Position numbers and translations under genes: made by a program. A stretch of DNA of 64,000 nt. It comes from Amanita rubescens. Lineage: Eukaryota > Basidiomycota > Agaricomycetes > Agaricales > Amanitaceae. The stretch's first letter is position 1. Each line of letters opens with the position of its first letter. The notes under the pieces were generated by a model, which was not told the DNA's origin, made no database searches, and worked only from the letters and a program-made list of their open reading frames with translations. The stretch is from NCBI GenBank assembly GCA_015039365.1, contig WION01000090.1, forward strand, positions 110,127-174,126, in the 5' to 3' direction. Shown here one piece after another: positions 7,140-57,449 of this stretch.

Positions 7140-8560
7140 GCACGGTAGGTTCCCCAGGACCATTGGTTGCACGGACGCTGATATATCCTTCGTATCAGGT
7201 CGCTGTCTCGCCCATGTTCGCATTCCCCAGGATTCTTTAGAACCGTTCGCCACGCCGCCGCCCGCGGTATTCTTACACCAGCGCCTCCGTCGTTTTTTAG
7301 AATTGTTCGCCACCCCCTCGCCTGCGGTATTCTTACACTGGTACCTCCATGGTCTTTGAGAACCGTTCCCCACACCCTTGCCCGCGGTTTTCTTACACCA
7401 TCACCATGGTCTTTGACAACTGTTCCTCACGCCGTCGCCTGCGGTATTCTTACACCAGCAGCGCCTCCGTCGTTTTTTAGAATTGTTCGCCACCCCCTCG
7501 CCTGCGGTATTCTTACACTGGTACCTCCATGGTCTTTGAGAACTGTTCCCCACACCCTTGTCCGCGGTTTTCTTACACCAGCACCATGGTCTTTGACAAC
7601 CGTTCCCCACGCCGTCGCCTGCGGTATTCTTACACCAGCAGATCCATAACTGTTCCCCACACCCCCGCCTGCGGTTTTCTTACACCCCACTTGTAGTTTT
7701 CGAGAACCGTTTCCATGCCCCCGCCCACGGTTTTCTTACACCAACAGCTACACAGTTTTTGAGGACCCGCGGTTTCCTTACATCAGCAAACCTATAGTTT
7801 TTTTAGGACCATTTGCCACCCCTGTTCCCGTGGTTTTGTTACACCAGCAACTCAATGGTCTTTGAGAACTATGCCCCACGCACTTTCCTGTGGTTTTCCT
7901 ACACCAATAGACATCTAGTTTTTGAGAACTGTTACCCACCCCTTTGCCCGCGGTTTTGTTACACCAGGAAATCAATGGTCTTCGAGAACTGTGCCCCACG
8001 CACCTGCCCGTGGTTTTCTTACACCAACGGATCCATAGTCTTGACTCTTTGAGAACCGTTACCCACCCCTTCGCCCTCGGTTTTGTTACACCAGGAAATT
8101 GGAATCAATGGTCTTTGAGAACTGTGCCCCACGCACTTGCCCATGGTTTTCTTACACCAATGGATCAATAGTCTTTGAGAACCGTTCCCCACCCCTTTGC
8201 CCGTGGTTTTCTTACACCAACGGACCCATAGTTTCTGAGAACCGATTCCCACCCCTTTGCCCGCAGTTTTCTTACACTGGCAGTCCATGGTCTTTGAGAA
8301 CTGTGCCGAATGCCCTTTCACCTGGTATTCCTACACCAGCGCAACCATGGCAGTTTTTGAGAACCGTTCGCAACCCCCACGCCCACGGTTTTCTTACACC
8401 AGCACCCCGATGCCAGTTCTTGGGAACCGTTCGCAACCCCCTCGCCCACGGTTTTCTTACACCAGCACCCCGATGCCAGTTCTTGAGAACCGTTCGTCAC
8501 CCCTCACTCGTGGTTCTCGTACACCAGTACCTCCACAGTCTTTGAGAACCGTTCCTCATA
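7140..8560. repeat. Left subterminal minisatellite of the KDZ element (about 60-bp unit)
   Basis: About two dozen degenerate copies of a unit near 60 bp. Each contains a core like GGTTTTCTTACACCA and a second word like TTTGAGAACCGTTCCCCA. Open frames across it on both strands are translations of the repeat, not genes. Confidence 0.85.
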
Positions 8561-10339: not shown

Positions 10340-11240
10340 CAGGTGCACAAAAACTATAACTGAGTGGTGGTGCAAAGAAACCATACCCGAGTGAGGCTGA
10401 GATGGTGCAAGAAAACTAGAGGCAGTTGGTGGTGCGAGGAAACCATACCCGAGCGAGGCTGAGATGGTGCGAGAAAACTGGAGGCAGTCGGTGGTGCGAG
10501 AAAACCATACCTGAGTGAGGCTGGGATGGTGTGGGAAAACTGGAGGCAGTTAGTGGTGCGAGGAAACCATAAGCAAGCAAGGTTGAGATGGTGCGAGAAA
10601 ACTGGAGGCTGTCAGTGGTGTGAGGAAACCGTACCCGAGCGAGGCTGAGATGGTGCGAGGAAACTAGAGGCAGTCGGTGGTGCGAGAAAACCATAAGCAA
10701 GCGAGGTTGAGATGGTGAGAGAAGACTATCGCTGGCCAGTGGTGCGAGAAAACCATACCCGAGCAAGGCTTAGATAGTACGAGAGAACTAAAGGCAGTCG
10801 ATGGTGCGAGGAAACCATAGGCAAGCGAGTTTGAGATGGTGAGAGAGAACTGGAGGCTGTCAGTGGTGCGAGGAAACTATACCCGAGCGAGGCTGAGATT
10901 GTGCGAGGAAACTAGAGGCAGTCGGTGGTGCGAGGAAACCATGGGTAAGCGAGGTTGAGATGGTGAGAGAAAACTATCGTTGGCCAGTAGTGCGAGAAAA
11001 CCATACCCGAGCAAGGCTGAGATGGTGCGAGAGAACTAGAGGCAGTCGGTGGTGCGAGGAAACCATAGGCAAGCAAGGTTGAGATGGTGAGAGAAAACCA
11101 TACCCGAGCGAGGGTGAGATGGTGCGAGAGAACTAGAGGCAGTCGGTGGTGCGAGGAAACCATAGGCAAGCGAGGTTGAGATGGTGAGAGAGAACTATCG
11201 CTGGCCAGCGGTGGGAGGAGACCATAGCTGGGTGAGGTGC
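10340..11240. repeat. Right subterminal minisatellite of the KDZ element (about 62-bp unit)
   Basis: Degenerate tandem copies of a unit near 62 bp built of words like GTGGTGCGAGGAAACCATA and GAGATGGTGCGAGAAAACT. Read on the minus strand, it contains TGGTTTTCTCGCACCA, almost the same core as in the left array, so the two arrays are inverted relative to each other. Confidence 0.8.
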
Positions 11241-15075: not shown

Positions 15076-18000
15076 ATGCCGCCGCAGAAACTTGCAACCG
15101 CTAATCTTGTAGGGACTATGCGTGATTCTCACAGATTTCTTCTCTAATACTCGAGCAGGCTATTGAGCGCTTTCGAATCTTAGTCATCGGCAACGCCAAC
15201 GCCGGGAAGACAACCATTCTGAAGAAGGTGTGCCATGCCCAGGGTCGTGAACCGGTTTGTTTCAATAGAGATGGTGAACCGGTGTGTCACCTGCTTTTCT
15301 GAATGTCGCCCTTAGTATTCATTCGCCCTCGTTTAGATTGCTGCAGAATTGAAGCCAGATGCCTCGGTATGTTTCGGGTGCAACTGTATCCTTCTTTAAT
15401 GGCAAATTAATGCAATTTCGCAGCGCGGAGAACATGATATAGAAGACAGTTTTCAATATCCGACAGCTCACGGCTTCATTTTTCACGATTCCCGTGGGTT
15501 CGAGGCAGGTGCTACTGGCGAACTGGATAATGTTACAGATTTCATAAAGAAACGAGCTGAGAGAGAGGAATTAAAGGATCGGCTTCATGCAATTTGGTGC
15601 GCTAAGACCTGCAACATATTGTAATTTTCTGATTTTTTGTCTGCCGCTCAGGTATTGCATTCCGACCAGCAACGACAGACCGATGACAGAAGCGGGGAAG
15701 AAATTATTTGAGATTGACACCGGAAATGGTCGGCAAACGTCTACATCACCTACTGAATGCATTGCTTATTCTAAATACAAGTTCCTGTCATTGCGATCTT
15801 CACGAAAATGGATGGTCTTGAAGAAAGGGCTTATAACCGGCTAGCAATGGACGGCATTTTCGACGAAGAGAAGGCCACGGCTGAGGCAAAAGCTACATTC
15901 GAACGCAACTATCTGGAGCCACTTGAAGCGGTAAAGCACAAGCCGCACCATACCATAAAACTCCGCGGTATGCTGCTCACATCGACGGTAACAGTGACCA
16001 GCTCAACCATTCTCCACCCAGACATGCACAAGGAAGACACTACCTGCGACGAGCTGATCATGAGAACATCACAGGCCCTCAACGGCAAAACTCTAAAGTT
16101 GTTCTGTCTCTCAATCCTTCGGAATGATATGGAATCTCGTATCAAAGATGTTATCAACAAGTGAGATTGCTTCTTCCTCCCAGATAACCAGTAGCTCGAT
16201 GCGATACTACAGGATAATTATACCAAAGGCGGAAGGTGAGGATAACGTCAACTATGTCACCTTCTATCGGTAATCATCGCCCTCCCTTAGAGGCTCGCAA
16301 ATCAGGCTCGTTTTCGCATGAACAAGCAAAATCGTTGTTCTGCGACGTGATGTATTGCTTTCCGCACATGCTGGTACGCATGCACTCTCGTTATACTTAA
16401 TTATTCACCCGCGCTTACAATGCCGCAGCCCGTACGTAATAGTTGTACTATAGTGCCTTGCTAATCCTCCTTGGTAGAGTGTGAGCGTCCTTACATAAGT
16501 TGACGAGCTATTAATCACGCAATTACCTTACGTCACTCTTAGTTTGTAAGCACCTCATTGCTATGATTGTCATTGTTTGCCCTACTCATCATAATACTAA
16601 ACCTCAAACATAACATAAACTTCAGGACGTAGGTCTCTACATTCCTGAGGGTATCGTCACTGATATCCTCGCTCGCTCCTCCCCTCCACAGAATGTATGT
16701 AACTGGTTATTTGGGAGGAAACTAGCTTGCTCTTATCAACTTTTCCTCATCTTCACAGCTAGTGCGTTCTTTAAGGTTTACTTTGATGGCACTTATGGAA
16801 ATATTCCTTATTGGTTGCCCACAGATTGTGAGTGCCAATGTTCCAGTTTTACTGTACTTTGCTGATAGTAGTGTGGACTGATGGCAGCAGGTGGGGTCTT
16901 GATTGTTTTAAGTTGAGTGGTGAATGTCTTACTGGATATATTGCAAACTACTAGGATGTGAGTCTCTCTGAGAATTGTGGTTTGTGGCTGTAGTGATGAA
17001 CTACTTGATGTCTACAGATGGTGAGTTATTTGTGATGCTGTCACACTCATGCCTGATCATATCACTTGACAATCAGGATGTGGGTGTCTACTACATCACC
17101 AAAATCAACCATGCAGGCTAATGTTACAACTGGCAAACCTTATTTGAACTATACAGAATGTGAGTGTGCTTGTTTGATACACCAGGGACAGATGATCTTA
17201 TGCAAGTGCTATACTATCACCACCAGAATGTGAACTTTATTTGGACCTTTAACTGCATAGTACTAACATCATCTACTCACAATCATTTCTGGATTGGTGT
17301 ATATCAGGCTGTGAGTTGGGATGTTCCTCAACCCAATCACAGTGGTATACTGATGGCCTCATAATGACATTGAACAGGTTGATGTAAGTTTCCACTGCTC
17401 TCACACCTGCCAACTGAGTGACAAATGCTGTATTTGAATTTTGAAGGCTGTATGTATCCTACAACAACAATTTTAAACTTAACTAATAGTAGATACTCTG
17501 TCTGATTCACAGATGGTATGTGCCATCTGCTCTTCATGACCACTTATTGATCATTGCATTGGTCAATACTTGGCATTGCAGAGAGTAAGTTCATTCCATC
17601 ACCACAGCATTGTGACCAATCTAACTGATTGATATGATGTGGTGTAGGAGGTATGTGATTAGTTTGTCCCAAATTTCTGAATGACATTGACACAAAGCCA
17701 ATGTGGTGGATATCAGAGCATAAATATGACTGTGAGTTTATTTGATTACTAGACATTAGTGGATTGTGTTTGTAACTCACATGTCTACTTTGCACTACTG
17801 GTGTGCCACTCTTTACAGAAAGTGAGTTTCTGACTTTTCCATATTAGCCCATCACAGCTCACATCTGCTCTTCACAGGATGTGAGTTTCTGGCTTTTCTG
17901 TTGTGATCAGCCCCTCACAGCTCACCTCTGCTCTTCACAGGATGTGAGTTTCTGACTTTTCTGTTGTGATCAGCCCCTCACAGCTCACCTCTGCTCTTCA

Positions 18001-20576
18001 CAGGAAGTGAGTTTCTGACTTTTCTGTTGTGATCAGCCCCTCACAGCTCACCTCTGCTCTTCACAGTTTGTGAGTTTGTGACTTTTCTGTTGTGATCAGC
18101 CCCTCACAGCTCACCTCTGCTCTTCACAGCAAGTGAGTTTCTGACTTTTCTGTTGTGATCAGCCCCTCACAGCTCACCTCTGCTCTTCACAGCAAGTGAG
18201 TTTCTGACTTTTCTGTTGTGATCAGCCCCTCACAGCTCACCTCTGCTCTTCACAGCTTGTGAGTTTCTGACTTTTCTGTTGTGATCAGCCCCTCACAGCT
18301 CACCTCTGCTCTTCACAGTTTGTGAGTTTCTGACTTTTCTGTTGTGATCAGCCCCTCACAGCTCACCTCTGCTCTTCACAGCAAGTGAGTTTCTGACTTT
18401 TCTGTTGTGATCAGCCCCTCACAGCTCACCTCTGCTCTTCACAGGGAGTGAGTTTCTGACTTTTCTGTTGTGATCAGCCCCTCACAGCTCACCTCTGCTC
18501 TTCACAGCTTGTGAGTTTCTGACTTTTCTGTTGTGATCAGCCCCTCACAGCTCACCTCTGCTCTTCACAGCTTGTGAGTTTCTGACTTTTCTGTTGTGAT
18601 CAGCCCCTCACAGCTCACCTCTGCTCTTCACAGGGAGTGAGTTTCTGACTTTTCTGTTGTGATCAGCCCCTCACAGCTCACCTCTGCTCTTCACAGGGAG
18701 TGAGTTTCTGACTTTTCTGTTGTGATCAGCCCCTCACAGCTCACCTCTGCTCTTCACAGGGAGTGAGTTTCTGACTTTTCTGTTGTGATCAGCCCCTCAC
18801 AGCTCACCTCTGCTCTTCACAGTTTGTGAGTTTCTGACTTTTCTGTTGTGATCAGCCCCTCACAGCTCACCTCTGCTCTTCACAGCTTGTGAGTTTCTGA
18901 CTTTTCTGTTGTGATCAGCCCCTCACAGCTCACCTCTACTCTTCACAGCAAGTGAGTTTCTGACTTTTCTGTTGTGATCAGCCCCTCACAGCTCACCTCT
19001 GCTCTTCACAGGGAGTGAGTTTCTGACTTTTCTGTTGTGATCAGCCCCTCACAGCTCACCTCTGCTCTTCACAGCAAGTGAGTTTCTGACTTTTCTGTTG
19101 TGATCAGCCCCTCACAGCTCACCTCTGCTCTTCACAGGTTGTGAGTTTCTGACTTTTCTGTTGTGATCAGCCCCTCACAGCTCACCTCTGCTCTTCACAG
19201 GTTGTGAGTTTCTGACTTTTCTGTTGTGATCAGCCCCTCACAGCTCACCTCTGCTCTTCACAGCAAGTGAGTTTCTGACTTTTCTGTTGTGATCAGCCCC
19301 TCACAGCTCACCTCTGCTCTTCACAGGTTGTGAGTTTCTGACTTTTCTGTTGTGATCAGCCCCTCACAGCTCACCTCTGCTCTTCACAGGTTGTGAGTTT
19401 CTGACTTTTCTGTTGTGATCAGCCCCTCACAGCTCACCTCTGCTCTTCACAGCGAGTGAGTTTCTGACTTTTCTGTTGTGATCAGCCCCTCACAGCTCAC
19501 CTCTGCTCTTCACAGCGAGTGAGTTTCTGACTTTTCTGTTGTGATCAGCCCCTCACAGCTCACCTCTGCTCTTCACAGTTTGTGAGTTTCTGACTTTTCT
19601 GTTGTGATCAGCCCCTCACAGCTCACCTCCGCTCTTCACAGTTTGTGAGTTTCTGACTTTTCTGTTGTGATCAGCCCCTCACAGCTCACCTCCGCTCTTC
19701 ACAGTTTGTGAGTTTCTGACTTTTCTGTTGTGATCAGCCCCTCACAGCTCACCTCTGCTCTTCACAGGAAGTGAGTTTCTGACTTTTCTGTTGTGATCAG
19801 CCCCTCACAGCTCACCTCTGCTCTTCACAGCACGTGAGTTTCTGACTTTTCTGTTGTGATCAGCCCCTCACAGCTCACCTCTGCTCTTCACAGCTTGTGA
19901 GTTTCTGACTTTTCTGTTGTGATCAGCCCCTCACAGCTCACCTCTGCTCTTCACAGGATGTGAGTTTCCAAACTTGGGACCCCACAAAATCAATATTTGA
20001 TTGCTTTTCAAACCTTGCATCCTTTTTTTGAAATGCATTTGTAGAATGTACGTACATGCTATTATGTTTTGTGGTTTCTGCTCTTTCACACCTTCCTGTC
20101 TCCCACTGCTCCCCAATATTTGTCACTAATTGATTTCATGTGGTTTTATAGGACCTTCACTTGCAGCAGTGCTTCAAACTTGTCTTGCAATTTATGCCAG
20201 AGTCACAGGTGTGGTACAGGCTTTGTTAAAATCTGTTGTTGCCTTATCATCAATATTATCATCATTCTATCACTTCTCAGGCTTCTCATCAAGCTATCTG
20301 GATTGGCATTTGTGTGTTTTTACATTCTCTGCCACTGCCATTAATGCCTCAGCCTGTTTCATAGTGGCTGAGGCCATTGCAGATATCTGCTTGTTCACCT
20401 CTCTCTCAATATCCCATGAGGACTTCAGGAAGGCTGTGGACTTCTGTCTAAATCCAGTGTCATATCCGAAACTGAAGTCTGCTGTGGAGCAACAGTCTTC
20501 TATCACTGACACCAATGTAGTCTTGGACATCCTGAAGGAGAATAGGGACAATTACAAGTTGTTGGTACTGCAGTGA
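15076..20576 (+). CDS. P-loop GTPase whose C-terminal part is assembled from one-codon exons (G2), copy 1
   Basis: Exons 15076-15108, 15159-15281, 15337-15366, 15424-15596, 15652-15728, 15782-16160, 16213-16235 and 16291-16373 encode a GTPase: P-loop GNANAGKT (residues 22-29), DSRG (84-87), TKMD (153-156). The apparent TGA at 16,162 lies inside a good donor (AA|GTGAGA). Splicing there continues as IIIPKAEEARKSG... to CFPHML in phase 0. Then follow 56 tiny exons (16,429 to 20,047): 54 of 3 nt, one of 6 nt and one of 15 nt, all phase 0 and stop-free. The last exons are 20152-20208, 20281-20311 and 20353-20576 (hydrophobic, ending ENRDNYKLLVLQ). The model has 67 exons and 471 residues. Lesion-free, unlike its duplicate. 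The last two junctions are less certain: one intron would be only 41 nt, and the 20,152 exon is also open in another frame. Splicing is inferred from sequence. Confidence 0.7.
16429..17880 (+). other. Older tract of 22 tiny exons in G2 with diverged introns
   Basis: Acceptor-exon-donor sites: CCC 16429, AGT 16478, TTT 16543, GAC 16626, AAT 16692, CTA 16759, ATT 16825, CAG 16888, GAT 16955, ATG 17018, GAT 17077, AAT 17157, AAT 17227 (weak donor GTGAAC), GCT 17308, GTTGAT 17378-17383, GCT 17447, ATG 17513, AGA 17582, GAG 17648, a 15-nt exon 17717-17731 (SINMT), AAA 17819, GAT 17878. Introns are 46-87 nt, start GTNNGN or similar, end in AG and are unlike one another; several contain CTAAT, CTGAT or CTTAC branch-like words. 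In unit 2 the same sites are present with only GAC to GAT (silent), AAT to AAA and ATG to ACG changes, although the introns carry indels. Confidence 0.7.
17822..19959 (+). repeat. 63-bp tandem array: near-invariant 60-nt intron plus a variable 3-nt exon, copy 1
   Basis: From 17,881 the unit is 60 nt running from GTGAGTTTCTGAC to CTCTTCACAG, followed by a free triplet; each 60-mer is a complete short intron (donor GTGAGT, CTCAC branch-like words, pyrimidine-rich acceptor CACAG). Triplets occur every 63 bp from 17,941 to 19,957 (33 of them): TTT 6, CAA 6, CTT 5, GGA 5, GTT 4, GAT 2, GAA 2, CGA 2, CAC 1. Changes inside the 60-mers are few (for example TCTGAC/TGTGAC, CTCTGC/CTCCGC). An imperfect first unit lies at 17,822-17,880. 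Confidence 0.9.
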
Positions 20577-29711: not shown

Positions 29712-32700
29712 AGTGAAAGAGCCGTCTAGTTTGGAAGTGCTGGTGCTTGAATTTGAATGAGTAGCTGGTAATGGATCTGTGAAACGAGCTCCGTAGGAAC
29801 AGAAGTACCTTAGTAAGTTGATTGATTCTCCCTTGCCATGAACCGAATAGAAGTTCGCGGATTTGGGTCGTGGGTATCACTGACATCATGGAGGGCGTTC
29901 TTTTCCACGTCAACTTGTGGAACGTGACTATGGCAAGTCCCAATTAGTAGTCCTCAGGCACCTACTTCCATTTTTCTAAAAATCTTTATGTTTCCCTGTC
30001 ACAAAGGCGTCTATCGATTGACCCAGGGAAATACTTCACAGCCTTGATCTTCTACGATTGGAAAAGAGCTTATCACCACGATGCAGGGATTATATAAGCT
30101 GACTACTACACCTAATGGCTCAGTCAATGTAGCAGCGGACCGACTTTGTAGACAATTTGAAATAAGCTGAAAAGATCTTCAAAATAACCGAGGCGAGGAT
30201 GGAAAAGAATGAACGGGTCGAAAAGGCGGCGGGCAACGTGAGAGAGAGAGTGGATGTGCGACCTTGGCTGCACGATCAATGACGGCATTGACGTGGGTCC
30301 AGTGTCCTCGCCGTTGGACAAGGTCGAGCAGCCAGCGGCGAAGATAGGCAGTAGATAGGCCCAGAGATGTGGGTTGGCTAATATTTTTAGATGAAGTTAT
30401 GATCGATCACGATCGATGATCGGAGAAGATTGTGCCTTGGGGATGCGCTGTGGGAATACGATGACGTAAGTGCATTCTTTACTCCTTATCGTTCACTGAA
30501 TCCTTATCGGAAGAGGTCGTTTGCGACTCCCCACACGAGCACATCATGCCGCAGCAGCAACTTGCAAACGCTAATCTTGTAGGGACTATGCGTGACTCTC
30601 ACAGATTCCTTCTCTAATACTCGAGCAGGCTATTGAGCGCTTTCGAATCTTGGTCATCGGCAACGCCAACGCCGGGAAGACAACCATTCTGAAGAAGGTG
30701 TGCCATGCCCAGGGTCGTGAACCGGTTTGTTTCAATAGGGATGGTGAACCGGTGTGTCACCTCCCTCTTCTGAATGTCGCCTTTAGTATTCATTCGCCCT
30801 TGTTTAGATTGCTGCAGAGTTGAAACCGGATGCCTCGGTGTGTTTCAGATGTATTTGTATCCTTCTTTTATGACAAATCGATGCAATTTCGCAGCGCGGA
30901 GAACATGATATAGAAGACAGTTTTCAATATCCGACAGCTCACGGCTTCATTTTTCACGATTCCCGTGGGTTCGAGGCAGGTGCTACTGGCGAACTGGATA
31001 ATGTTACAGATTTCATAAAGAAACGAGCTGAGAGAGAGGAATTGAAGGATCGGCTTCATGCAATTTGGTGCGCTAAGACCTGCAACATATTGTAATTGTC
31101 TGATTTTTTGTCTGCCGCTCAGGTATTGCATTCCGACCAGCAACGACAGACCGATGACAGAAGCGGGGAAGAAATTAGTTTGAGATTGACACCGGAAATG
31201 GTCGGCAAACGTCTACATCACCTACTGAATGCATTGCTTATTCTAGATACAAGTTCCTGTCATAGCCATCTTCACGAAAATGGATGGTCTCGAAGAAAGG
31301 GCATTATAACCGGCTAGCAATGGATGGCATTTTCGACGAAGAGAAGGTCACGGCCTGAGGCAAAAGCTACATTCGAACACAACTATCTGGAGCCACTTGA
31401 AGCGGTAAAGCACAAGCCGCGCCATACCGTAAAACTACGCGGTATGCTGCTCGCATCGACGGTAACAGTGACCAGCTCAACCATTCTCCACCCAGACATG
31501 CACAAGGAAGGCACTACCTGCGACGAGCTGATCATGAGAACATCACAGGCCCTCAACGGCAAAACTCTAAAGTTGTTCTGTCTCTCAATCCTTCGGAATG
31601 ATATGGAATCTCGTATCAAAGATGTTATCAACAAGTGAGATTGCTTCTTCCTCCCAGATAACCAGTAGCTGATGCAATGCTACAGGATAATTATACCAAA
31701 GGCGGAAGGTGAGGATAACGTCGACTATGTCACCTTCTATCGGTAATCATCGCCCTCCCTTAGAGGCTCGCAAATCAGGCTCGTTTTCGCATGAACAAGC
31801 AAAATCGTTGTTCTGCGACGTGATGTATTGCTTTCCGCACATGCTGGTACGCATGCACTCTCGTTATACTTAATTATTCACCCGCGCTTACAATGCCGCA
31901 GCCCGTACGTAATAGTTGTACTATAGTGCCTTGCTAATCCTCCTTGGTAGAGTGTGAGCGTCCTTACATAAGTTGACGAGCTATTAATCACACAATTACC
32001 TTACGTCACTCTTAGTTTGTAAGCACCTCATTGCTATGATTGTCATTGTTTGCCCTACTCATCATAATACTAAACCTCAAACATAACATAAACTTCAGGA
32101 TGTAGGTCTCTACATTCCTGAGGGTATCGTCACTGATATCCTCGCTCGCTCCTGCCCTCCACAGAATGTATGTAACTGGTTATTTGGGAGGAAACTAGCT
32201 TGCTCTTATCAACTTTTCCTCATCTTCACAGCTAGTGCGTTCTTTAAGGTTGATACTTTGATGGCACTTATGGAAATATTCCTTATTGGTTGCCCACAGA
32301 TTGTGAGTGCCAATGTTCCAGTTTTGCTGTACTTTGCTGATAGTAGTGTGGACTGATGGCAGCAGGTGAGGTCTTGATTGTTTCAAGTTGAGTGGTGAAT
32401 GTCTTACTGGATATATTGCAAACTACTAGGATGTGAGTCTCTCTGAGAATTGTGGTTTGTGGCTGTAGTGATGAACTACTTGATGTCTACAGATGGTGAG
32501 TTATTTGTGATGCTGTCACACTCATGCCTGATCATATCATTTGATGATCAGGATGTGGGTGTCTACTACATTACCAAAATCAACCATGCAGGCTAATGTT
32601 ACAACTGGCAAACCTTATTCAAACTATACAGAAAGTGAGTGTGCTTGTTTGATACACCAGGGACAGATGATCTGATGCAAGTGCTATACTATCATCACCA

Positions 32701-33306
32701 GAATGTGAACTTTATTTGGACCTTTGATTGCATAATACTAACATCATCTACTCACAATCATTTCTGGATTGGTGTATATCAGGCTGTGAGTTGGGATGTT
32801 CCTCAACCCAATCACAGTGGTATACTGATGGCCTCATAATGGCATTGAACAGGTTGATGTAAGTTTCCACTGCTCTCACACCTGCCAACTGAGTGACAAA
32901 TGCTGTATTTGAATTTTGAAGGCTGTATGTATCCTACAACAACAATTTCAAACTTAACTAATAGTAGATACTCTGTCTGATTCACAGACGGTATGTGCCA
33001 TCTGCTCTTCACAACCATTTATTGATCATTGCATTGGTCAATACTTGGCATTGCAGAGAGTAAGTTCATTCCATCACCACAGCATCGTGACCAATCTAAC
33101 TGATCAATATGATGTGGTGTAGGAGGTATGTGACTAGTTTGTCCCAAATTTCTGAATGACATTGACACAAAGCCAATGTGGTGGATATCAGAGCATAAAT
33201 ATGACTGTGAGTGTAGTTGATTACCAGCCATTAGTGGATTGTGTTTGCATTTGGTTGTAACTCACATATCTACCTTGCACCACTGGTGTGCCACTCCTTA
33301 CAGAAA

Positions 33307-34859
33307 GTGAGTTTCTGACTTTTCTGTTGTGATCAGCCCCTCACAGCTCACCTCTGCTCTTCACAGCGAGTGAGTTTGTGACTTTTCTGTTGTGATCAGC
33401 CCCTCACAGCTCACCTCTGCTCTTCACAGGGAGTGAGTTTGTGACTTTTCTGTTGTGATCAGCCCCTCACAGCTCACCTCTGCTCTTTGCAGAAAGTGAG
33501 TTTCTGACTTTTCTGTTGTGATCAGCCCCTCACAGCTCACCTCTGCTCTTCGCAGAAAGTGAGTTTCTGACTTTTCTGTTGTGATCAGCCCCTCACAGCT
33601 CACCTCTGCTCTTTGCAGAAAGTGAGTTTCTGACTTTTCTGTTGTGATCAGCCCCTCACAGCTCACCTCTGCTCTTCACAGGGAGTGAGTTTGTGACTTT
33701 TCTGTTGTGATCAGCCCCTCACAGCTCACCTCTGCTCTTCACAGTTTGTGAGTTTCTGACTTTTCTGTTGTGATCAGCCCCTCACAGCTCACCTCTGCTC
33801 TTCACAGGAAGTGAGTTTCTGACTTTTCTGTTGTGATCAGCCCCTCACAGCTCACCTCTGCTCTTCACAGCTTGTGAGTTTCTGACTTTTCTGTTGTGAT
33901 CAGCCCCTCACAGCTCACCTCTGCTCTTCACAGCTTGTGAGTTTCTGACTTTTCTGTTGTGATCAGCCCCTCACAGCTCACCTCTGCTCTTCACAGGAAG
34001 TGAGTTTCTGACTTTTCTGTTGTGATCAGCCACTCAGAGCTCACCTCTGCTCTTCACAGCAAGTGAGTTTCTGACTTTTCTGTTGTGATCAGCCCCTCAC
34101 AGCTCACCTCTGCTCTTCACAGGAAGTGAGTTTCTGACTTTTCTGTTGTGATCAGCCCCTCACAGCTCACCTCTGCTCTTCACAGTTTGTGAGTTTCTGA
34201 CTTTTCTGTTGTGATCAGCCCCTCACAGCTCACCTCTGCTCTTCACAGTTTCTGAGTTTGTGACTTTTCTGTTGTGATCAGCCCCTCACAGCTCACCTCT
34301 GCTCTTCACAGTTTGTGAGTTTCTGACTTTTCTGTTGTGATCAGCCCCTCACAGCACACCTCTGCTCTTCACAGCGAGTGAGTTTGTGACTTTTCTGTTG
34401 TGATCAGCCCCTCACAGCTCACCTCTGCTCTTCACAGTTTGTGAGTTTCTGACTTTTCTGTTGTGATCAGCCCCTCACAGCTCACCTCTGCTCTTCACAG
34501 GAAGTGAGTTTCTGACTTTTCTGTTGTGATCAGCCCCTCACAGCTCACCTCTGCTCTTCACAGCGAGTGAGTTTGTGACTTTTCTGTTGTGATCAGCCCC
34601 TCACAGCTCACCTCTGCTCTTCACAGGAAGCGAGTTTCTGACTTTTCTGTTGTGATCAGCCCCTCACAGCTCACCTCTGCTCTTCACAGGAAGCGAGTTT
34701 CTAACTTTTCTGTTGTGATCAGCCCCTCACAGCTCACCTCTGCTTTTCACAGTTTGTGAGTTTGTGACTTTTCTGTTGTGATCAGCCCCTCACAGCTCAC
34801 CTCTGCTCTTCACAGTTTGTGAGTTTCTGACTTTTCTGTTGTGATCAGCCCCTCACAGC
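33307..34859 (+). repeat. 63-bp intron/one-codon-exon array, copy 2, left part
   Basis: Same 60-nt intron unit as 17,881-19,956. Triplets at 33,304 + 63n up to 34,816: TTT 7, GAA 6, AAA 4, CGA 3, GGA 2, CTT 2, CAA 1. Acceptors vary slightly (TTTGCAG and TTCGCAG at three sites). The array is cut by the 5' LTR at 34,860. Confidence 0.9.
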
Positions 34860-35187
34860 TGTCAAGCCCCTGTTTTACTCCTTGATACACCGCATGCTTC
34901 GTGCATGTACTGACTCATGTACCCTACGCCCTATGACATAGTATGACTCATACCCTGTACCCTATGACTCATACCCTACGCCCATGATAGTATATAAGTA
35001 GTGTACATTGTGGTAGATACGCTAAGCAACAAGCTAGTCTTTCCTTGGACAGCTCGGAGCTCCTCCCTCTTAAACTTTGCCTTGAACCTTGACGGTTCTC
35101 GTATTCGCCCTCGCTGCTTGACACAGTCAGCAGTAGCCACCTAGTGATTGAGTCTTGTGTTGTGTAGCCTGTCTAAGGCTCGTGACA
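34860..35187 (+). repeat. 5' LTR
   Basis: 328 bp, TG...CA ends. Contains a TATATAAG box at about 34,991, which probably drives the element's transcript, and internal short repeats of the type ACTCATACCCT. Confidence 0.95.
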
Positions 35188-35345
35188 TAAGCTTGTTGCT
35201 TTTCTTCACACCACTCACCACGGAATTCCTACGAATTTTCCTTGCTATCGCCCTGATAGCACACCTCACATACCTCTACCTTGTAGCAGTTTATATTGCA
35301 CAAGTACATCAACAACTCTACACAACCCCAAACACCCGTTAAACC

Positions 35346-36683
35346 ATGGCCCTCCCAGCTGCGCTCACTGCGATCGCACTGGCAGGATTTACCTACCTCA
35401 TGAGACGAAACAGAATGCAGATTGTTCAACCGGCCTTCGACGAGGCAGGAAATATCATTGGAGCAACCTCGACAACGGCCGTACCCACCATGGAAACTAT
35501 TGCAACGGAAACAGAAGATGCGACAGTTGCTGCCGCAGCTATGGGCGCAAGTATCGCAACCGTCATAGAACAGTTACGGGTACAAAACGAAAACTTTGAA
35601 CGACAACTAGCGGAACAACAACAAGAGTTTGAAAGACAACTCGGACGAGAACGACGTGCTGCAGAACGAGCTGACAGAGACGCCGACAGACTTAGGACAC
35701 GACCGCCAGAACTAAAGATAGAACCACCGGAACACTATGAAGGAGAACCGGCGGAAATCGACTCATGGCTCAGAAGGATGAACTACTACTTCGTCCAAGT
35801 AAGGTTAACGGAAGACATCGCGCGAGTTACGTATGCGATCCAACGAATCCGAAAAGGGAAAGGGAACCGAGCATCGAATTGGGCAAATGGAAAAATAGGA
35901 GAAATTGCACAAAACGATGAAGAAAGGATTAGATTCGCCACGACCTATCCCGGACGAACATGCACGCATTACCAAGCATGTACGGAAGTCCCGGCGGAAG
36001 CTGCAACGGTCGATCATCCGGAATGGGAAAGATACGAATTTATCCACAAACCGCCCTTCGTAAACTGGAACGCATTCGCAGAGGAAGCAAGACAATACTT
36101 CCTAACAACGGAAACGCGCGACGAAGCCATAAAGAAACTCCGGGAGTTGAAACAAGGAGAAAAAACCATCGAAGAATATATCATTGAATTCAAAGGATGG
36201 GCTCAACTCTCCGGATTCGACGAGATCGCACTAATCGATCAATTTAAAAAGGGCATTAAAATCGGAGTAGGCCGAAGGGTAATTGAACTAGGAAACCCCG
36301 GAGACGGTAGCGCGCCAGGACAACTCCAAGCATGGTACGCCAGAGCCACGGAAATAGAAAAACAATTCCGAGAAGCCGAAAGATACTATGGTAAAAGAGA
36401 ATTCAAGGTCACAAGGACAAATGCGCAAGCCGGGCCAAGCCAAACAAAAAGGGAAACAATTACGGTTAAAGTCAAAGACGAAAACGCGATGGATGTTGAC
36501 CAGACTCCGACAACCCGTCCTCCACCTAAATGTTATAACTGTGGAAAAATCGGTCACATCGCAAAATACTGCAAAGGGAAAACCGTGATTAGAAGGCAAG
36601 CTGTAGGAGACTACTTCGGATCAATGACCGAAGAAGAAAAGACGGAAATGAAAGAGAAGTTGGGTTTTGTGAGAGATCAGTGA
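35346..36683 (+). CDS. gag: Gag of the Ty3/gypsy element
   Basis: 445 codons from ATG at 35,346. A hydrophobic N-terminal segment is followed by a charged coiled-coil-like stretch (residues about 80-120), a retrotransposon-gag capsid-type domain (EIDSWLRRMNYYF onward) and a CCHC zinc knuckle CYNCGKIGHIAKYC near residue 397. Pol overlaps the gag stop by four bases in the -1 frame, consistent with expression by ribosomal frameshifting. Confidence 0.9.
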   Translation: MALPAALTAIALAGFTYLMRRNRMQIVQPAFDEAGNIIGATSTTAVPTMETIATETEDATVAAAAMGASIATVIEQLRVQNENFERQLAEQQQEFERQLGRERRAAERADRDADRLRTRPPELKIEPPEHYEGEPAEIDSWLRRMNYYFVQVRLTEDIARVTYAIQRIRKGKGNRASNWANGKIGEIAQNDEERIRFATTYPGRTCTHYQACTEVPAEAATVDHPEWERYEFIHKPPFVNWNAFAEEARQYFLTTETRDEAIKKLRELKQGEKTIEEYIIEFKGWAQLSGFDEIALIDQFKKGIKIGVGRRVIELGNPGDGSAPGQLQAWYARATEIEKQFREAERYYGKREFKVTRTNAQAGPSQTKRETITVKVKDENAMDVDQTPTTRPPPKCYNCGKIGHIAKYCKGKTVIRRQAVGDYFGSMTEEEKTEMKEKLGFVRDQ

Positions 36684-39600
36684 AGGATAGTCCCTCTTCA
36701 TTGATCTCCGATCGATGTATTTACGAATCTCTAGTACCTTCCGAATATGTATCCCTTGAATCAATAATATACGAGGTGAAACAAAAGGAAGGAAAGATTC
36801 GAAACACGTCGATAAGGGACAAAACAAGCAAACTCAGGAATTCATCGTCCGCATGGATGATAAGGCAATTATGGAAATACCCGGAACAAGGAGTTACGCA
36901 ACTAAGAACGTTCGCCCACCAAACCTTTAGAGAACAAATTGATGAAGAACTAATCAATAAAATCAATGATCTCGGAGAAGAAGAGGCGATCTGGTACCTG
37001 CGAAAACTCAGAGAACCACAATGGATCGGAGCGTCAGGACACAGGGAAATGGACATACGAATCATCCTCACCACCCTGGATACAGAAGAAAGCTTCGATA
37101 CCATAGCATTAATCGACAGCGGATGCATGATGTCTGCGATATCCAAACAATTTGTCGAGGAACACAAAATTAACACAACCAAACTACCACGAGCAATAAC
37201 CGCTACCAACGCCGACGGAACGTTAAACGTCGGAGGAAAGATAACGGACATGGTCACGATCAAAATGAGAATTTACGACCATGAAGAAACGCTAGAACTG
37301 GCAGTGGTAAATATTGGAAAAAAAGACGTATTCCTCGGACATGATTGGCTAGAACATCACAACCCAGAAATCGAATGGAGAAAGGCCCAAATAAAATTCT
37401 CAAAATGTCCAGGAGAATGTTACGACGAATCATGGGTCGGAGAACCAGAAGATGAAATCGATCAATATAATCCGGAAGAAGATAAGATACTGGCCATTGA
37501 TATTGATCGACCCGAATTCATACGACACGTCGATCTCCCTTGGATAAAAGTACGAGCAAAATCAAACTTTGCCACTGATATTGCAGGAGCCAACCAAATC
37601 GAGAGAACCTGGAAAGAAATAGTGCCGGAAGTCTATCGCGACTACAAGGAAGTATTCGAAAAACAGACATTCGACCAATTACCGCCGAGAAGGGCATGGG
37701 ACCACGCAATTGAATTAACGCCAGGAGCGAAAATGGTGGATTGCAAAATATACCCGTTAAACCCAGAAGAGCAAAAACAGTTAGACGAATTCCTAAAAGA
37801 ACAATTAGAAACAGGAAGGATCAAACCAAGTAAATCACCCATGGCATCGCCATTCTTCTTCGTAAAAAAGAAAGACGGAAAACTACGACCAGTCCAAGAT
37901 TATCGGAAATTAAATGAAATGACTATCAAAAACAGATATCCATTACCGTTAATCTCGGAATTAATCGACAAGTTATCCGAAGCAAAATACTTCTCGAAGA
38001 TGGACGTAAGATGGGGATACAACAACATCAGAATCAAAGAAGGAGACGAATGGAAAGCCGCGTTCCGAACGAATCGTGGATTATTCGAACCACTGGTAAT
38101 GTTCTTTGGATTAACCAATTCACCGGCAACATTCCAAACAATGATGAACGATATCTTTAGGGAAGAAATCGCAGAAGGATGGGTCGTAATCTATATGGAT
38201 GACATCCTAGTGTTCTCAAAAGACAAGAAAGAACATCAAGGACAAGTCAAGAGAATCCTCGAAAAACTACGACAACACCAACTTTCCTTAAAAGCAGAGA
38301 AATGTTACTTCGAACAAGAAGAGATTGAATTCCTAGGATTAATCATTTCAAATAAAGGAATACGAATGGACCCTAATAAAGTGAAAGCGATAGCCGAATG
38401 GCCAACGCCAACGACGAAAAGGGAACTTCAGCAATTCCTCGGATTTGTCAATTTCTATCGAAGGTTCATTAAAGGCTTTGCGAAAATAGCGAAAGCATTA
38501 ACGAAACTTACGGGAAAAATTGAATGGTTATGGACGGAATTACAACAAGAAGCGTTCGAAGGATTAAAAAAGGAAATCGCCTCCGAAAGAGTCCTCATCA
38601 TCCCTAAACCAGGAAGGCCCTTCCGGATGGAAACAGACGCATCGGACTTTGCGATCGCGGCGATACTTTCTCAACTCGACGACGACGGAATTTGGAAACC
38701 CGTAGCATTCATATCGAAAGCATTAAACGACGCAGAAAGAAATTACGAAGTATATGATAAAGAAATGCTAGCGGTAATGCAAGGATTTTACGATTGGGCT
38801 CACTACCTAAAAGGAACAGAAACGGTAACGGAAGTATTGACAGATCATCAAAATCTTACGTATTTCCGAAAACCACAAAACCTGAACAGGAGACAAGCCC
38901 GATGGATCATGGATCTACAGGAATATAACTTCGTCATAAAACATCGATCCGGGAAAACGAATACTAAAGCCGATATACTATCTAGAAGAGCCGGACATCC
39001 GAAAGGGGAAAACGATAACGAAGGAATCATTCTCCTAAAAGAAGATATATTCGGAAAAGTAGAAATCAGAATAGATGACGAAAGTTACAAATGGCTAAGT
39101 ATTCGACAAGAAATTCGTAACACACACCGTCGATATTTCGATAAACAAGTAACCAAGGGAATAAAAGAAAAGGACCCGGATTTCAAATACGATACCCTCG
39201 ATCAATGCTGGGAATGGAAAGGACGAATATATGTACCAGCAAAACCAGAAATCCGAGAAAGGGTAATCAGCTCGAACCATGATGTAAAAACGGCAGGACA
39301 TCCAGGAGTCGCAAAAACTCTGGAATTAACAACAAGAGGATTCTGGTGGCCTAACATGAAACGGGACATTGAAACGTACATCAAAGCATGTCATCAATGC
39401 CAGATCAATAAACCCGATAGACAACCACGAGCGGCGCCGCTACAACCAAATGAAATCCCGTCGGAACCGTGGGCAGTAATCAGCGTGGACCTTATCGGAC
39501 CGTTAGTACCGTCAAAAGGAAAAGATATGATCTTGGTAATTGTCGATCGATTCTCGAAAAAGGCTTACTTCATTCCATGTAACACAACGATAACATCGCA

Positions 39601-40768
39601 AGGAGTAGCAAACCTTTATCGGGAACATATATTCAAGGAACAAGGATTACCAAAGAAAGTCATATCAGATCGAGGAACGCAATTCGTATCCGGATTCATG
39701 AAGGGATTATACCAAATATTAGGAATAGAAGCAAACCCTTCAACGGCGTACCATCCACAAACGGACGGACAAACGGAACGAGTAAATCAAGAACTGGAAG
39801 AATATCTGCGAATGTATGTAAACAAAAAACAAGACGATTGGACAGATTGGCTTCCTATAGCTCAATTCTGCCATAACGATCGACGACATTCGGCGACAGG
39901 GTTCTCCCCTTTCATGATTACAACGGGAAGAAATCCATTTAAAGGAACGGAAGGTAAAACGGAAACGACGAACCACTCGGCTGCGGAATATATCGAAAGG
40001 TTCAAAGAGACATGGAAAACGGTGAAAGCGAACTTGGAACAGGCCGCGGAACGGATGAAAAGACAACACGATAAACACGTCAAACCATCCCGACGATATC
40101 AACCAGGAGACCGAGTATATCTAGATGCGTCTAAAATTAAAACAACAAGGACATCGAAAAAACTCGACGCAAAGTTCCACGGACCCTTCAAAGTAATTTC
40201 CGAGGTAGGGAAATCAGCGTATAAATTGGAATTACCACCGACATGGGGGATACACGACGTCTTCCACGAGTCGAAACTTAAACCAGTTTACAAACCACAA
40301 TTCCCGGCGCAGCAAGAAAACGAACCACGGCCGCCACCGGAAATTATTAATGGACGTGAAGAACATGAAGTAGAAGCGGTGAAAGGGGTAAGAAAAACGA
40401 GGCAAGGGAAACGTTTCCTAGTGAAATGGAAAGGATTACCCGAAGAAGAGAACACCTGGGAACCCGAGGAACACATGGAAAACGCGAAGAAGGCAATAAA
40501 GGAATACTATAAGAAAAACCCTTCAGCGTTACGACAAAACAAACCCCTTCCTCTCCTTCCCCCATCGTCCCTATCTCCAACCCCCTCTGGACCACCGACG
40601 CCGACACCTCCGCACCTCCTTCCCCTCTATGTTCCGCATCCGCGCCTTTATGGGTGGGATGACAAGGCCTTCGACGAAGAATACCGACGAAAACTCGAAG
40701 GGAACTGGCAACGCTGGAAGAGCGCACGCGAAGAAGCGAATTCGTCGCAAGGACCCACACCAGTTTAA
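36680..40768 (+). CDS. pol: Pol polyprotein: protease, reverse transcriptase, RNase H, integrase, chromodomain
   Basis: Single open frame of 1,362 codons, in the -1 frame relative to gag. Domains in order: aspartic protease (IDSG, Asp at residue 146), reverse transcriptase with YMDD at 505-508, RNase H (ETDASDFAIAAIL; TDHQNLTYF), integrase with an HHCC zinc finger (HDVKTAGHPG...CHQCQINK) and catalytic Asp937, Asp997 and Glu1033 (35 residues between the last two), and a C-terminal chromodomain starting near residue 1230 (FLVKWKGL). The order RT-RH-IN-chromodomain places it among chromoviruses. No lesion is visible, so it may be active. Confidence 0.95.
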   Translation: MKDSPSSLISDRCIYESLVPSEYVSLESIIYEVKQKEGKIRNTSIRDKTSKLRNSSSAWMIRQLWKYPEQGVTQLRTFAHQTFREQIDEELINKINDLGEEEAIWYLRKLREPQWIGASGHREMDIRIILTTLDTEESFDTIALIDSGCMMSAISKQFVEEHKINTTKLPRAITATNADGTLNVGGKITDMVTIKMRIYDHEETLELAVVNIGKKDVFLGHDWLEHHNPEIEWRKAQIKFSKCPGECYDESWVGEPEDEIDQYNPEEDKILAIDIDRPEFIRHVDLPWIKVRAKSNFATDIAGANQIERTWKEIVPEVYRDYKEVFEKQTFDQLPPRRAWDHAIELTPGAKMVDCKIYPLNPEEQKQLDEFLKEQLETGRIKPSKSPMASPFFFVKKKDGKLRPVQDYRKLNEMTIKNRYPLPLISELIDKLSEAKYFSKMDVRWGYNNIRIKEGDEWKAAFRTNRGLFEPLVMFFGLTNSPATFQTMMNDIFREEIAEGWVVIYMDDILVFSKDKKEHQGQVKRILEKLRQHQLSLKAEKCYFEQEEIEFLGLIISNKGIRMDPNKVKAIAEWPTPTTKRELQQFLGFVNFYRRFIKGFAKIAKALTKLTGKIEWLWTELQQEAFEGLKKEIASERVLIIPKPGRPFRMETDASDFAIAAILSQLDDDGIWKPVAFISKALNDAERNYEVYDKEMLAVMQGFYDWAHYLKGTETVTEVLTDHQNLTYFRKPQNLNRRQARWIMDLQEYNFVIKHRSGKTNTKADILSRRAGHPKGENDNEGIILLKEDIFGKVEIRIDDESYKWLSIRQEIRNTHRRYFDKQVTKGIKEKDPDFKYDTLDQCWEWKGRIYVPAKPEIRERVISSNHDVKTAGHPGVAKTLELTTRGFWWPNMKRDIETYIKACHQCQINKPDRQPRAAPLQPNEIPSEPWAVISVDLIGPLVPSKGKDMILVIVDRFSKKAYFIPCNTTITSQGVANLYREHIFKEQGLPKKVISDRGTQFVSGFMKGLYQILGIEANPSTAYHPQTDGQTERVNQELEEYLRMYVNKKQDDWTDWLPIAQFCHNDRRHSATGFSPFMITTGRNPFKGTEGKTETTNHSAAEYIERFKETWKTVKANLEQAAERMKRQHDKHVKPSRRYQPGDRVYLDASKIKTTRTSKKLDAKFHGPFKVISEVGKSAYKLELPPTWGIHDVFHESKLKPVYKPQFPAQQENEPRPPPEIINGREEHEVEAVKGVRKTRQGKRFLVKWKGLPEEENTWEPEEHMENAKKAIKEYYKKNPSALRQNKPLPLLPPSSLSPTPSGPPTPTPPHLLPLYVPHPRLYGWDDKAFDEEYRRKLEGNWQRWKSAREEANSSQGPTPV

Positions 40769-41122
40769 AGTGACTGATACCTGTAGCAACAAGATCCGAT
40801 ACGAACAGGGAGAGAAAAAGAAAGAAACAACGAGGAATCGGGAGAGGACGCGCCTAGGCAAGATCATGGGTGACGCCTCGAACGAGGAATCGCGAGATGT
40901 CAATAGGGTATTCGGTGAACCCTGGAGACGGACCCCTACGTGGAAAGTCGAAAGGCCTAACCTTAGCACTCGATAGTAACCTCCCGTCGGCATTGGACGC
41001 AGGTCTGGTAACGGGTAAAGACGAAGGAGCATCAGGAAGAACGTGAGTGCCAATTGTCATACCATCGAATTTTTGGATCCCTTTCCAGTTCGTCTGGAAT
41101 CCGAACCTTGAAACGGAGGCTA

Positions 41123-41450
41123 TGTCAAGCCCCTGTTTTACTCCTTGATACACCGCATGCTTCGTGCATGTACTGACTCATGTACCCTACGCCCTATGAC
41201 ATAGTATGACTCATACCCTGTACCCTATGACTCATACCCTACGCCCATGATAGTATATAAGTAGTGTACATTGTGGTAGATACGCTAAGCAACAAGCTAG
41301 TCTTTCCTTGGACAGCTCGGAGCTCCTCCCTCTTAAACTTTGCCTTGAACCTTGACGGTTCTCGTATTCGCCCTCGCTGCTTGACACAGTCAGCAGTAGC
41401 CACCTAGTGATTGAGTCTTGTGTTGTGTAGCCTGTCTAAGGCTCGTGACA
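41123..41450 (+). repeat. 3' LTR
   Basis: Same 328 bp as the 5' LTR. The 354 bp between the pol stop and this LTR contain no recognisable domain. Confidence 0.95.
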
Positions 41451-42484
41451 ACAGCACACCTCTGCTCTTCACAGAAAGTGAGTTTGTGACTTTTCTGTTG
41501 TGATCAGCCCCTCACAGCTCACCTCTGCTCTTCACAGTTTGTGAGTTTCTGACTTTTCTGTTGTGATCAGCCCCTCACAGCACACCTCTGCTCTTCACAG
41601 CAAGTGAGTTTCTGACTTTTCTGTTGTGATCAGCCCCTCACAGCTCACCTCTGCTCTTCACAGTTTGTGAGTTTCTGACTTTTCTGTTGTGATCAGCCCC
41701 TCAGAGCTCACCTCTGCTCTTCACAGGAAGTGAGTTTGTGACTTTTCTGTTGTGATCAGCCCCTCACAGCTCACCTCTGCTCTTCACAGCTTGTGAGTTT
41801 CTGACTTTTCTGTTGTGATCACTCCCTCACAGCTCACCTCTGCTCTTCACAGGAAGTGAGTTTCTGACTTTTCTGTTGTGATCAGCCCCTCACAGCTCAC
41901 CTCTGCTCTTCACAGGAAGTGAGTTTCTGACTTTTCTGTTGTGATCACTCCCTCACAGCTCACCTCTGCTCTTCACAGGAAGTGAGTTTCTGACTTTTCT
42001 GTTGTGATCAGCCCCTCACAGCTCACCTCTGCTCTTCACAGGAAGTGAGTTTCTGACTTTTCTGTTGTGATCAGCCCCTCACAGCTCACCTCTGCTCTTC
42101 ACAGGACGTGAGTTTCTGAGTTTCTGTTGTGATCAGCCCCTCACAGCTCACCTCTGCTCTTCACAGCAAGTGAGTTTCTGACTTTTCTGTTGTGATCAGC
42201 CCCTCACAGCTCACCTCTGCTCTTCACAGCGAGTGAGTTTCTGACTTTTCTGTTGTGATCAGCCCCTCACAGCTCACCTCTGCTCTTCACAGAGAGTGAG
42301 TTTCTGACTTTTCTGTTGTGATCAGCCCCTCACAGCTCACCTCTGCTCTTCACAGGAAGTGAGTTTCTGACTTTTCTGTTGTGATCAGCCCCTCACAGCT
42401 CACCTCTTCTCTTCACAGGATGTGAGTTTCTGACTTTTCTGTTGTGATCAGTCCCTCACAGCTCACCTTTGCTCTTCACAGGAT
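41451..42484 (+). repeat. 63-bp intron/one-codon-exon array, copy 2, right part
   Basis: The array resumes after the 3' LTR. Triplets from 41,475 to 42,482: GAA 6, TTT 2, CAA 2, GAT 2, and one each of AAA, CTT, GAC, CGA and AGA. One unit is 62 bp long (after 42,105). Acidic codons dominate, unlike copy 1, whose array is rich in Gln, Gly, Val, Leu and Phe codons. Confidence 0.9.
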
Positions 42485-43189
42485 GTGAGTTTCCAAACTT
42501 GGGACCCCACAAAATCAATATTTGATTGCTTTTCAAACCTTGCATTCTTTTTTTGAAATGCATTTGTAGAATGTACACTGTGCTACTATGTTTTGTGGTT
42601 TCCACTCTTTCTGAATTCCTTCCTGTCTCTTACTGCTAATATTTGTCACTAATTGCCTTCATGTGGTTTTATAGGACCTTCATTTGCAGCAATGCTTCAA
42701 ACTTGTCTTGCAATTTATGCCAGAATCACAGGTGTGGCACAGGCTTTGTTACAATCTGTTGTTGCCTTATCATCAAACTTCTTAGGCCTCTTATCAACTT
42801 CAAGCTATCTGGATTGGCCTTGGTGTGTTTTTACATTCTCTGCCACTGCCATTAATGTCTTAGTATGTTTCATAGTGGCTGAGGCTATTGCAGATATCTC
42901 CTTGTTCACCTCTCTCTCAGTATCCCATGAGGAGGACTTCAGGAAGGCTTTTGACTTCTGTGTAAATGCAGTGTCATATCTGAAACTGAAGTCTACTGTG
43001 GAACAATGGCAGTCTTCTATCACTGACACCAATGTAGTCTTGGACATCCTGAAGGAGAATAGGGACAATTACAAGTTGTTGGTACTGCAGTGAAGCAGGG
43101 TTGACATGTATAATGTATAAATGCATATTATCATAGGTCACAATGATCCCGGGCCCCAGGCTTGGTAGCGTGAAATCATTTTCGAGTCT

Positions 43190-57260: not shown

Positions 57261-57449
57261 TCGGCGTATACCACGCGCCATCTCACCGTGATCTCGGAGT
57301 TAAACGTTAACAGGTCTATTGTCCAATGTATGTATCTTAGATTACCGTGGGGCGATTTGGGGCGATAAAAGATCAGATGGTTTTGATTGTATAACTTGTA
57401 CATAGCACTACAGCGTTAAGCGAGCTTCACGACTCAATTACCCTTAACC

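Follow-up and report, generated by a model that had tools for sequence, protein, structure and literature searches.

An open GTPase gene of the mushroom Amanita rubescens, here called copy A, lies on contig WION01000090.1 within the 64,000-nucleotide (nt) stretch analyzed in this study (positions 110,127 to 174,126; hereafter the window). Its pre-mRNA is predicted, in our view probably correctly, to pass 56 consecutive micro-exons, 54 of them a single codon. The encoded protein would carry, between its GTPase domain and a helical C-terminal part, ~60 residues that likely change fast. An earlier note on this DNA had proposed a GTPase gene running through tens of single-codon exons, and three sets of observations support the proposal. 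Paralogs keep, one for one, the micro-exons that precede a tandem cassette array; two database proteins from short contigs, P0002 and P0121, read through the chain; and chains recur in three of four further paralog loci, alongside a genome-wide excess of 3-nt gaps with one stop in 2,614.

Gene model of copy A and proteins that follow it

Copy A occupies window positions 15,076-20,576 on the + strand and is modeled as 67 exons with 467 codons in a frame that is open to the stop at 20,576. Eight ordinary exons, which encode the P-loop GTPase domain, precede the 56 micro-exons, and three C-terminal exons follow them. The micro-exons were called between 16,373 and 20,152 with a dynamic-programming exon caller in which stops are not selectable. 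The caller returned 54 exons of 3 nt, the 6-nt exon GTTGAT, and the 15-nt exon AGCATAAATATGACT, exactly the set that the earlier note had placed after 16,373. All 57 chain introns (57/57) have GT-AG borders and measure 46-104 nt, which matches the 49-107 nt intervals noted between micro-exons, and every chain junction is in phase 0. The proposed entry point at HML in phase 0 was likewise recovered, as were the three silent third-position changes (CAC/CAT, CAG/CAA, GAG/GAA) that alone separate the exit exon from its duplicate. The gene had been thought to end at 20,208; this end is ruled out, as two more exons (20,281-20,311 and 20,365-20,576) reach the stop and are matched by P0002 and P0121. 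Reading the last exon as one open frame (FSSSYLDW...) breaks the phase; both proteins match the phase-consistent model, in which one more intron is placed.

A strict scan of the window (YAG-NNN-GTRNG, introns of 44-110 nt, no stop) finds a chain of 36 steps of 3 nt, and outside the window's two chains it finds at most one step. The pre-array part alone gives 7 steps, as compared to at most 2 in 2,000 shuffles. No stop occurs among 154 array codons, where 7.5 are expected after shuffling. Because the caller is unable to pick stops, we rely instead on stop-blind listings and on genome-wide patterns. The stop-blind listings of the copy A array junctions contain no stop, in line with the earlier claim that no chain triplet is one, and none is found at the 16-base junction of the window's own array type.

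A search with the spliced protein matched 741 proteins, of which the best 120 are listed. Among the matches listed, P0002 (449 amino acids, from a contig of 1,800 nt) covers 99% of the spliced protein and reads HML-PSFDKLINDMDKNAVNAMRESVDIR...-LQQC...-IWIGLMTEAIADFCLF. Its PSFDKLINDMDKNAVNAMRESVDIR aligns without gaps to the copy A pre-array peptide PSFDNLIQDMDNNAVDAMRESINMT with 17 of 25 residues identical; after it come a differing stretch in which L, D, H, R, and F abound and, last, the C-terminal part. P0121 (197 amino acids, two contigs, the longest 1,337 nt) came from a search with four C-terminal pieces, which matched nine proteins. Before the array it agrees with copy A in 68 of 71 residues, and beyond the array in 98 of 99, the pre-array peptides agreeing at 23 of 25; P0002 is the more distant protein. 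Four of the 170 residues outside the array differ, and in copy A the DNA of the whole stretch covers 4,448 nt. A match over such a span from contigs of at most 1,337 nt points to an origin in spliced RNA or a retrocopy. Most simply, P0121 would be a spliced RNA, or a retrocopy of one, from a near-identical gene with another array, and as the JGI contigs of P0002 and P0121 are too short for the unspliced gene, we infer them to be RNA-derived. The P0121 array, EDVFRFDFDELRRRVFRFQQRRRLRFD, has 27 residues of only seven kinds (D, E, F, L, Q, R, V), all of which occur in the copy A array, and is not an ordered subset of any of the seven arrays read. The copy C408b, described below, was considered as its source and rejected: the pre-array peptide is the same (25/25), but the array residues form no ordered subset of that array.

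Other proteins touch the chain as well. P0122 and P0123 carry array-like residues before the C-terminal part, and P0005, P0006, P0007, and P0010 enter the chain and leave it in a possible retained intron. A targeted search with the C-terminal region of P0002 matched only P0002, P0005, and P0010. The deposited A. rubescens models P0001 and P0003 exit the gene directly after HML. The nine closest models from Amanita, Russula, and Lactifluus read among the matches listed (these two and P0004, P0008, P0011, P0012, P0014, P0015, and P0016) stop either short of HML or its counterpart or within ~20 residues beyond it; annotated genes of this family would then be truncated. In four of them, the Russula decolorans and Amanita muscaria models P0008, P0012, P0014, and P0016, the final ML is followed by VR, the pattern expected of read-through into a GTACGT-like intron, and these orthologues may have unannotated micro-exon chains.

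Paralogs and genome-wide junctions

Genome searches assigned the window to contig C777 (assembly of 75.7 Mb) and found ten copies of the C-terminal part on eight contigs. Copy A shows 0-1 mismatches against C133 and C408. A second copy in the window, copy B (30,546-43,093), has an array split by a retroelement. In the place expected for B, contig C408 carries the copy C408b, which has up to 35 mismatches per 500 bases against B near the array start; the longest codon run common to the two arrays is 3, as in shuffles. A subfamily on C353, C397, C773, and C768 is 63% identical at the C terminus, and a further member, C582, is cut by a contig edge.

This subfamily retains all 20 pre-array micro-exons at the lengths seen in copy A (18 of 3 nt, one of 6, and one of 15, with GC donors allowed). 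A 15-nt exon and a 123-nt intron called in C353 proved to be products of GT-only calling; allowing GC donors restored the exons ATG and CGA. Four GC donors are present in the chains of copy B and C353, those of C353 at these two exons. Between copy A and C353, the pre-array introns are identical at 1,050 of 1,184 positions, with 190 gap columns and equal length in only 4 of 20 cases, whereas the exons are identical at 59 of 75 bases with no indel. Exon sequence is thus less alike than intron sequence while exon length is constant, a pattern that amino-acid-changing coding triplets would produce. Diverged chains with unequal introns are found on C353, C29, C124, and C31.

The family is large: the genome gives at least 222 G-domain matches, with 146 of 717 candidates scored. 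In three of the four further paralog loci that were fetched, a chain lies on the strand of the G domain, with 16, 7, and 8 steps in the strict scan and 18, 25, and 8 in a relaxed one; shuffles give at most 3, and exon lengths of 1, 2, or 4-9 nt at most 2. The introns of these chains are mostly ~60 nt, similar within a gene but non-identical, and many end in ...CCAACAG and start with GTGAGTGA. This one exact junction was counted genome-wide, with gaps of 2, 4, and 6 nt beside 3. AACAG-NNN-GTGAGTGA occurs 2,614 times (backward control 7), as compared to 19 times with a 2-nt gap (control 3), 10 with a 4-nt gap (control 0), and 34 with a 6-nt gap (control 5). Ten of the 19 2-nt gaps are on contig C749. 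The 2,614 triplets include one TGA, no TAA, and no TAG, and TGG occurs 23 times. The first 100 junction places include ten clusters, four of which have a G-domain match no more than 3 kb upstream on the same strand (judged by hand, among the matches listed).

The cassette array and competing explanations

From 17,819 the chain takes the form of a tandem array, in which a 63-nt cassette consists of a 60-nt intron, GTGAGTTT...CTTCACAG (end TTCACAG), and one codon. The first array intron of copy A is 56 nt, and 33 of 34 units measure 63 nt. Over their full 60 nt, 28 of these 33 introns are identical, and between them stand nine different codons. Departures from consensus were counted in 63-nt units only, excluding units of other lengths. 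In copy A they affect 5 of 1,980 intron cells versus 53 of 99 codon cells; in the first part of copy B (24/24 units), 20 of 1,440 versus 37 of 72; in its second part (15/16 units), 11 of 900 versus 17 of 45; in C408b (39/47 units), 2 of 2,340 versus 59 of 117; and in C353 (21/26 units), 50 of 1,260 versus 32 of 63. Codon variety is therefore about equal whether the introns are identical or 4% diverged. The arrays of A, B, C408b, and C353 have the 60-nt intron consensus in common, and their codons vary in kind, order, and number. Array codons are mainly NAA, NGA, NTT, and NAT, with C at the second base in 0 of 154 and A or T at the third in 152 of 154; at the genome-wide AACAG-NNN-GTGAGTGA junctions, second-base C occurs in 224 of 2,614 and third-base A or T in 94 of the first 100. 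Adjacent identical codons exceed those in shuffles in copy A (10 versus 3.5, p 0.001), in copy B (p 0.04), and in C408b (p 0.03), an excess consistent with single-unit duplication in the younger arrays.

A mechanism can be proposed on this basis. With an exon of 3 nt, the acceptor almost touches the donor, so that neighboring introns could hardly be bound together; recognition of the short introns one by one fits this geometry, and the introns would be removed singly, by intron definition. Each cassette would act as a frame-neutral module, as any number of 63-nt units keeps the frame, and with all chain junctions in phase 0 any number or subset of cassettes stays open. To keep introns identical between differing codons, recombination or conversion between introns would have to be combined with codon selection, or mutation would have to be focused on the codon. 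Unequal recombination between identical introns would add, drop, and reorder codons, and selection, or a codon-focused mutation process, would keep them different. A broader extension, which we advance tentatively and hold to be somewhat short of an even chance, is a codon-cassette system across the A. rubescens genome, with thousands of single-codon exons between gene-specific introns that serve as homology handles. A large GTPase family would thereby add, lose, swap, or alternatively include single amino acids with the frame unbroken and change focused on the codon rather than the intron, forming a receptor-like repertoire that arose independently in truffles and mushrooms.

Several points weigh against reading copy A as a spliced micro-exon gene. 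Splicing in A. rubescens is predicted here from sequence only, and processed retrocopies or, for P0002, an intron-poor relative would look like transcripts. Over array A, C777, C133, and C408 are nearly identical and so do not verify its assembly independently. The array of copy B holds a broken donor and a retroelement, no chain was found in the fourth further paralog locus (L043), and the excess of adjacent identical codons, a sign of unit duplication, was not found in C353 (p 0.13). C408b contains eight junctions of 2 or 4 nt (loci L027 and L028), which would break the frame if spliced in. These indels sit at the codon (another unit carries 3 extra nt in its intron), and some of the 4-nt junctions resemble merged codons (GAAT, CTGA, GTTA). 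They may be consensus errors or the mark of a dead copy, and as possible consensus errors the 4-nt junctions are not used as evidence. The 2- and 4-nt junctions of C408b and of C749:2135-4149, all at the codon position, would be either consensus errors from mixed units or real codon-focused indels.

The merged-codon junctions of C408b, together with the concentration of 2-nt gaps on C749, are what could be cited for an assembly artifact, in which the array or its codon variation results from mis-assembly or polishing of identical units. This is extremely improbable: polishing does not explain the diverged chains with unequal introns on C353, C29, C124, and C31, and a comparable array is present in P0121, which comes from another source. 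Scarcely more credible is a 63-bp minisatellite inside one 3.8-kb intron that is spliced out whole, with AG-NNN-GT arising by chance or as a relic. In its favor, the array is tandem and highly uniform, and P0001 and P0003 exit directly after HML. One long intron is rejected, however, by the pre-array peptide and array-type residues in P0002 and P0121 and by the near absence of stops genome-wide; the 2,614 gaps of 3 nt against 10 of 4 nt and the conservation of chain exons among paralogs speak against it as well. An intron burst, in which copies of an introner-like element invaded an old variable coding stretch at each codon boundary, would make the introns young and the codons old. It accounts for 28 of 33 introns being identical and for different codons between them without fast codon change, and introner-like elements exist in fungi (PMC4457414; cited papers are represented here and below by the portions available). 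Nevertheless, we regard a burst as unlikely. It would need insertion exactly every third base, codon number and order differ between array copies, and the adjacent identical codons of copy A fit unit duplication. The 60-nt array intron occurs at 335 places, and those listed are all on the eight contigs of this gene group (11/11 candidate stretches scored).

Combinatorial alternative splicing competes over the role of the chain rather than its structure: single-codon exons would be included or skipped independently, so that each gene gives many isoforms. Such splicing of tens of 3-bp microexons has been reported for truffle NACHT-ANK genes, every subset of the chain exons would stay in frame (all are multiples of 3 in phase 0), and P0121 is without N at the place of the AAT exon. 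Yet no pair of transcripts from one gene with differing subsets was found, P0121 matches no ordered subset of the seven arrays, and the arrays already differ between copies in DNA, so that no splicing variation is needed. We therefore consider this role possible but on the doubtful side.

The features of both copies are collected in the table below. The open reading frames (ORFs) of the retroelement in copy B encode 445 and 1,362 amino acids and appear Ty3/gypsy-like by eye. The neighborhood is a tandem segmental duplication, 92-97% identical (11711-19371/27185-34860, 18925-23851/41451-46417, and 3658-6147/24177-26643). A three-fold repeat of ~0.8 kb, 87-90% identical, lies at window positions 57339-58220, 60213-61057, and 62619-63505. 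Minisatellites with units of ~60 and 62 bp occupy 7,234-8,503 and 10,342-11,228, with longest open stretches of 166 and 117 codons, and the strict scan found no micro-exon chain in either.

Features of GTPase copies A and B in the window
Feature	Position	Strand	Remarks
Ordinary exons 1-8, copy A	15076..16373	+	Gene model; GTPase domain with motif GNANAGKT; ends ...CFPHML in phase 0
Pre-array chain, copy A	16374..17818	+	20 micro-exons (18 single codons, GTTGAT, 15-nt AGCATAAATATGACT); introns non-identical; peptide PSFDNLIQDMDNNAVDAMRESINMT
Cassette array, copy A	17819..19959	+	35 single-codon exons (AAA ... GAT)
Last single-codon exon AAT, copy A	20045..20047	+	Exon caller; P0121 without N at this place
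Exon DLHLQQCFKLVLQFMPESQ, copy A (exit exon of the earlier note)	20152..20208	+	Gene model; identical in P0121
Exon ASHQAIWIGI and first base of next codon, copy A	20281..20311	+	Gene model, P0121
Last exon AEAIADICLF...NYKLLVLQ and stop, copy A	20365..20576	+	First two bases complete the preceding codon
GTPase exons, copy B	30546..31846	+	Start read by eye, approximate
Chain and first array part, copy B	31902..34859	+	Donor broken (unit 34249, CTGAGT); GC donors in units 34627 and 34690
Long terminal repeat (LTR) retroelement in copy B array	34860..41450	+	5-bp target duplication ACAGC; ORFs 35346-36683 and 36680-40768
Rest of array (17 codons), AAT exon, and C-terminal exons, copy B	41451..43093	+

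Relation to known systems

Pfam finds four weak P-loop GTPase matches in the spliced protein (G-alpha, Arf, GTP_EFTU, MMR_HSR1), all below the curated cut-off, and no match to NACHT, NB-ARC, or ankyrin. In the AlphaFold model of P0002, most G-domain blocks score >80 and the C-terminal half 43-62. The first 50 Foldseek matches to this model include the bacterial dynamin-like protein BDLP, the immunity-related GTPases Irga6 and Irgb6, septins, and G-alpha, with query TM of at most 0.32; the fold search is uninformative beyond the G domain.

The earlier note knew of no described gene with tens of successive 3-nt exons. That statement fails as a claim of novelty, given the nank (NACHT-ANK) genes of the truffle Tuber melanosporum, for which tens of codon-sized 3-bp microexons diversified by alternative splicing were reported earlier (PMC3689799, PMC4986451, PMC10197012). 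The A. rubescens genes share with them 3-nt exons in uninterrupted runs of tens (54 of the 56 micro-exons of copy A, and chains of 18, 25, and 8 steps in three of four further loci) and an expanded, fast-changing family in an ectomycorrhizal fungus. The truffle genes encode ascomycete NACHT-ANK receptors, whereas the gene here encodes a basidiomycete P-loop GTPase, and alternative splicing is reported in the truffle, whereas this chain is read from DNA. With no NACHT or ankyrin match in the Pfam scan of the spliced protein, copy A is not a nank gene but may work like one; the same scan gives neither the NACHT nor the NB-ARC match of a fungal NLR/STAND protein. New as compared to the truffle are the phylum, the protein family, the scale in one genome, and the near-identical intron cassettes, which are known only for the Amanita side.

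Other systems resemble the array in part. In the HNWD/HET repeat receptors of Podospora, WD repeats are under concerted evolution (PMC4986451), and as in the array, tandem units are homogenized, few codons are hypervariable, and repeat number varies. The conserved part of the repeat is coding there, whereas it is intron here, and the coding part here is one codon per unit. By analogy only, the variable stretch would likely serve recognition, as in the truffle NACHT-ANK and Podospora HNWD receptors. Aphid bicycle genes have very many tiny exons, and a megacycle gene has more than 100 microexons; their internal exons are small, are not called single codons, and are almost all in phase 2, in contrast to 3 nt in phase 0 here (PMC9168663). 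Fungal introner-like elements likewise present near-identical introns in many copies but spread between genes (PMC4457414), whereas the array intron, among the matches listed, was found only in one gene group and not in many unrelated genes. The single-nucleotide exon of Fusarium CYP621A, whose splicing is backed by RNA data, is also an ultra-short fungal exon, but an isolated and conserved one rather than one of tens in a row in a variable region (PMC12940212). According to PMC11121469, functional microexons had not previously been described in filamentous fungi. In the portions available, PMC7674699 does not mention GTPases, and PMC4014442 and PMC3990503 name microexons only as an aligner setting. 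A literature search over titles and abstracts, with subscription papers covered in part, returned no report of a single-codon exon array in a basidiomycete or a GTPase, and the truffle nank genes are the only published exon chains of this kind that we found besides the present ones.

If the prediction for copy A is correct, the spliceosome can assemble a protein segment codon by codon over tens of successive steps, and across a large gene family, with exons of 3 nt that leave no room for exon definition. The codon-sized microexon device of truffles would then have a second example, from a different phylum and protein family, and one open to testing in a mushroom that has many paralogs. Introns kept identical between differing codons would amount to an inverted form of the coding-repeat receptor, in which the introns serve as recombination handles.

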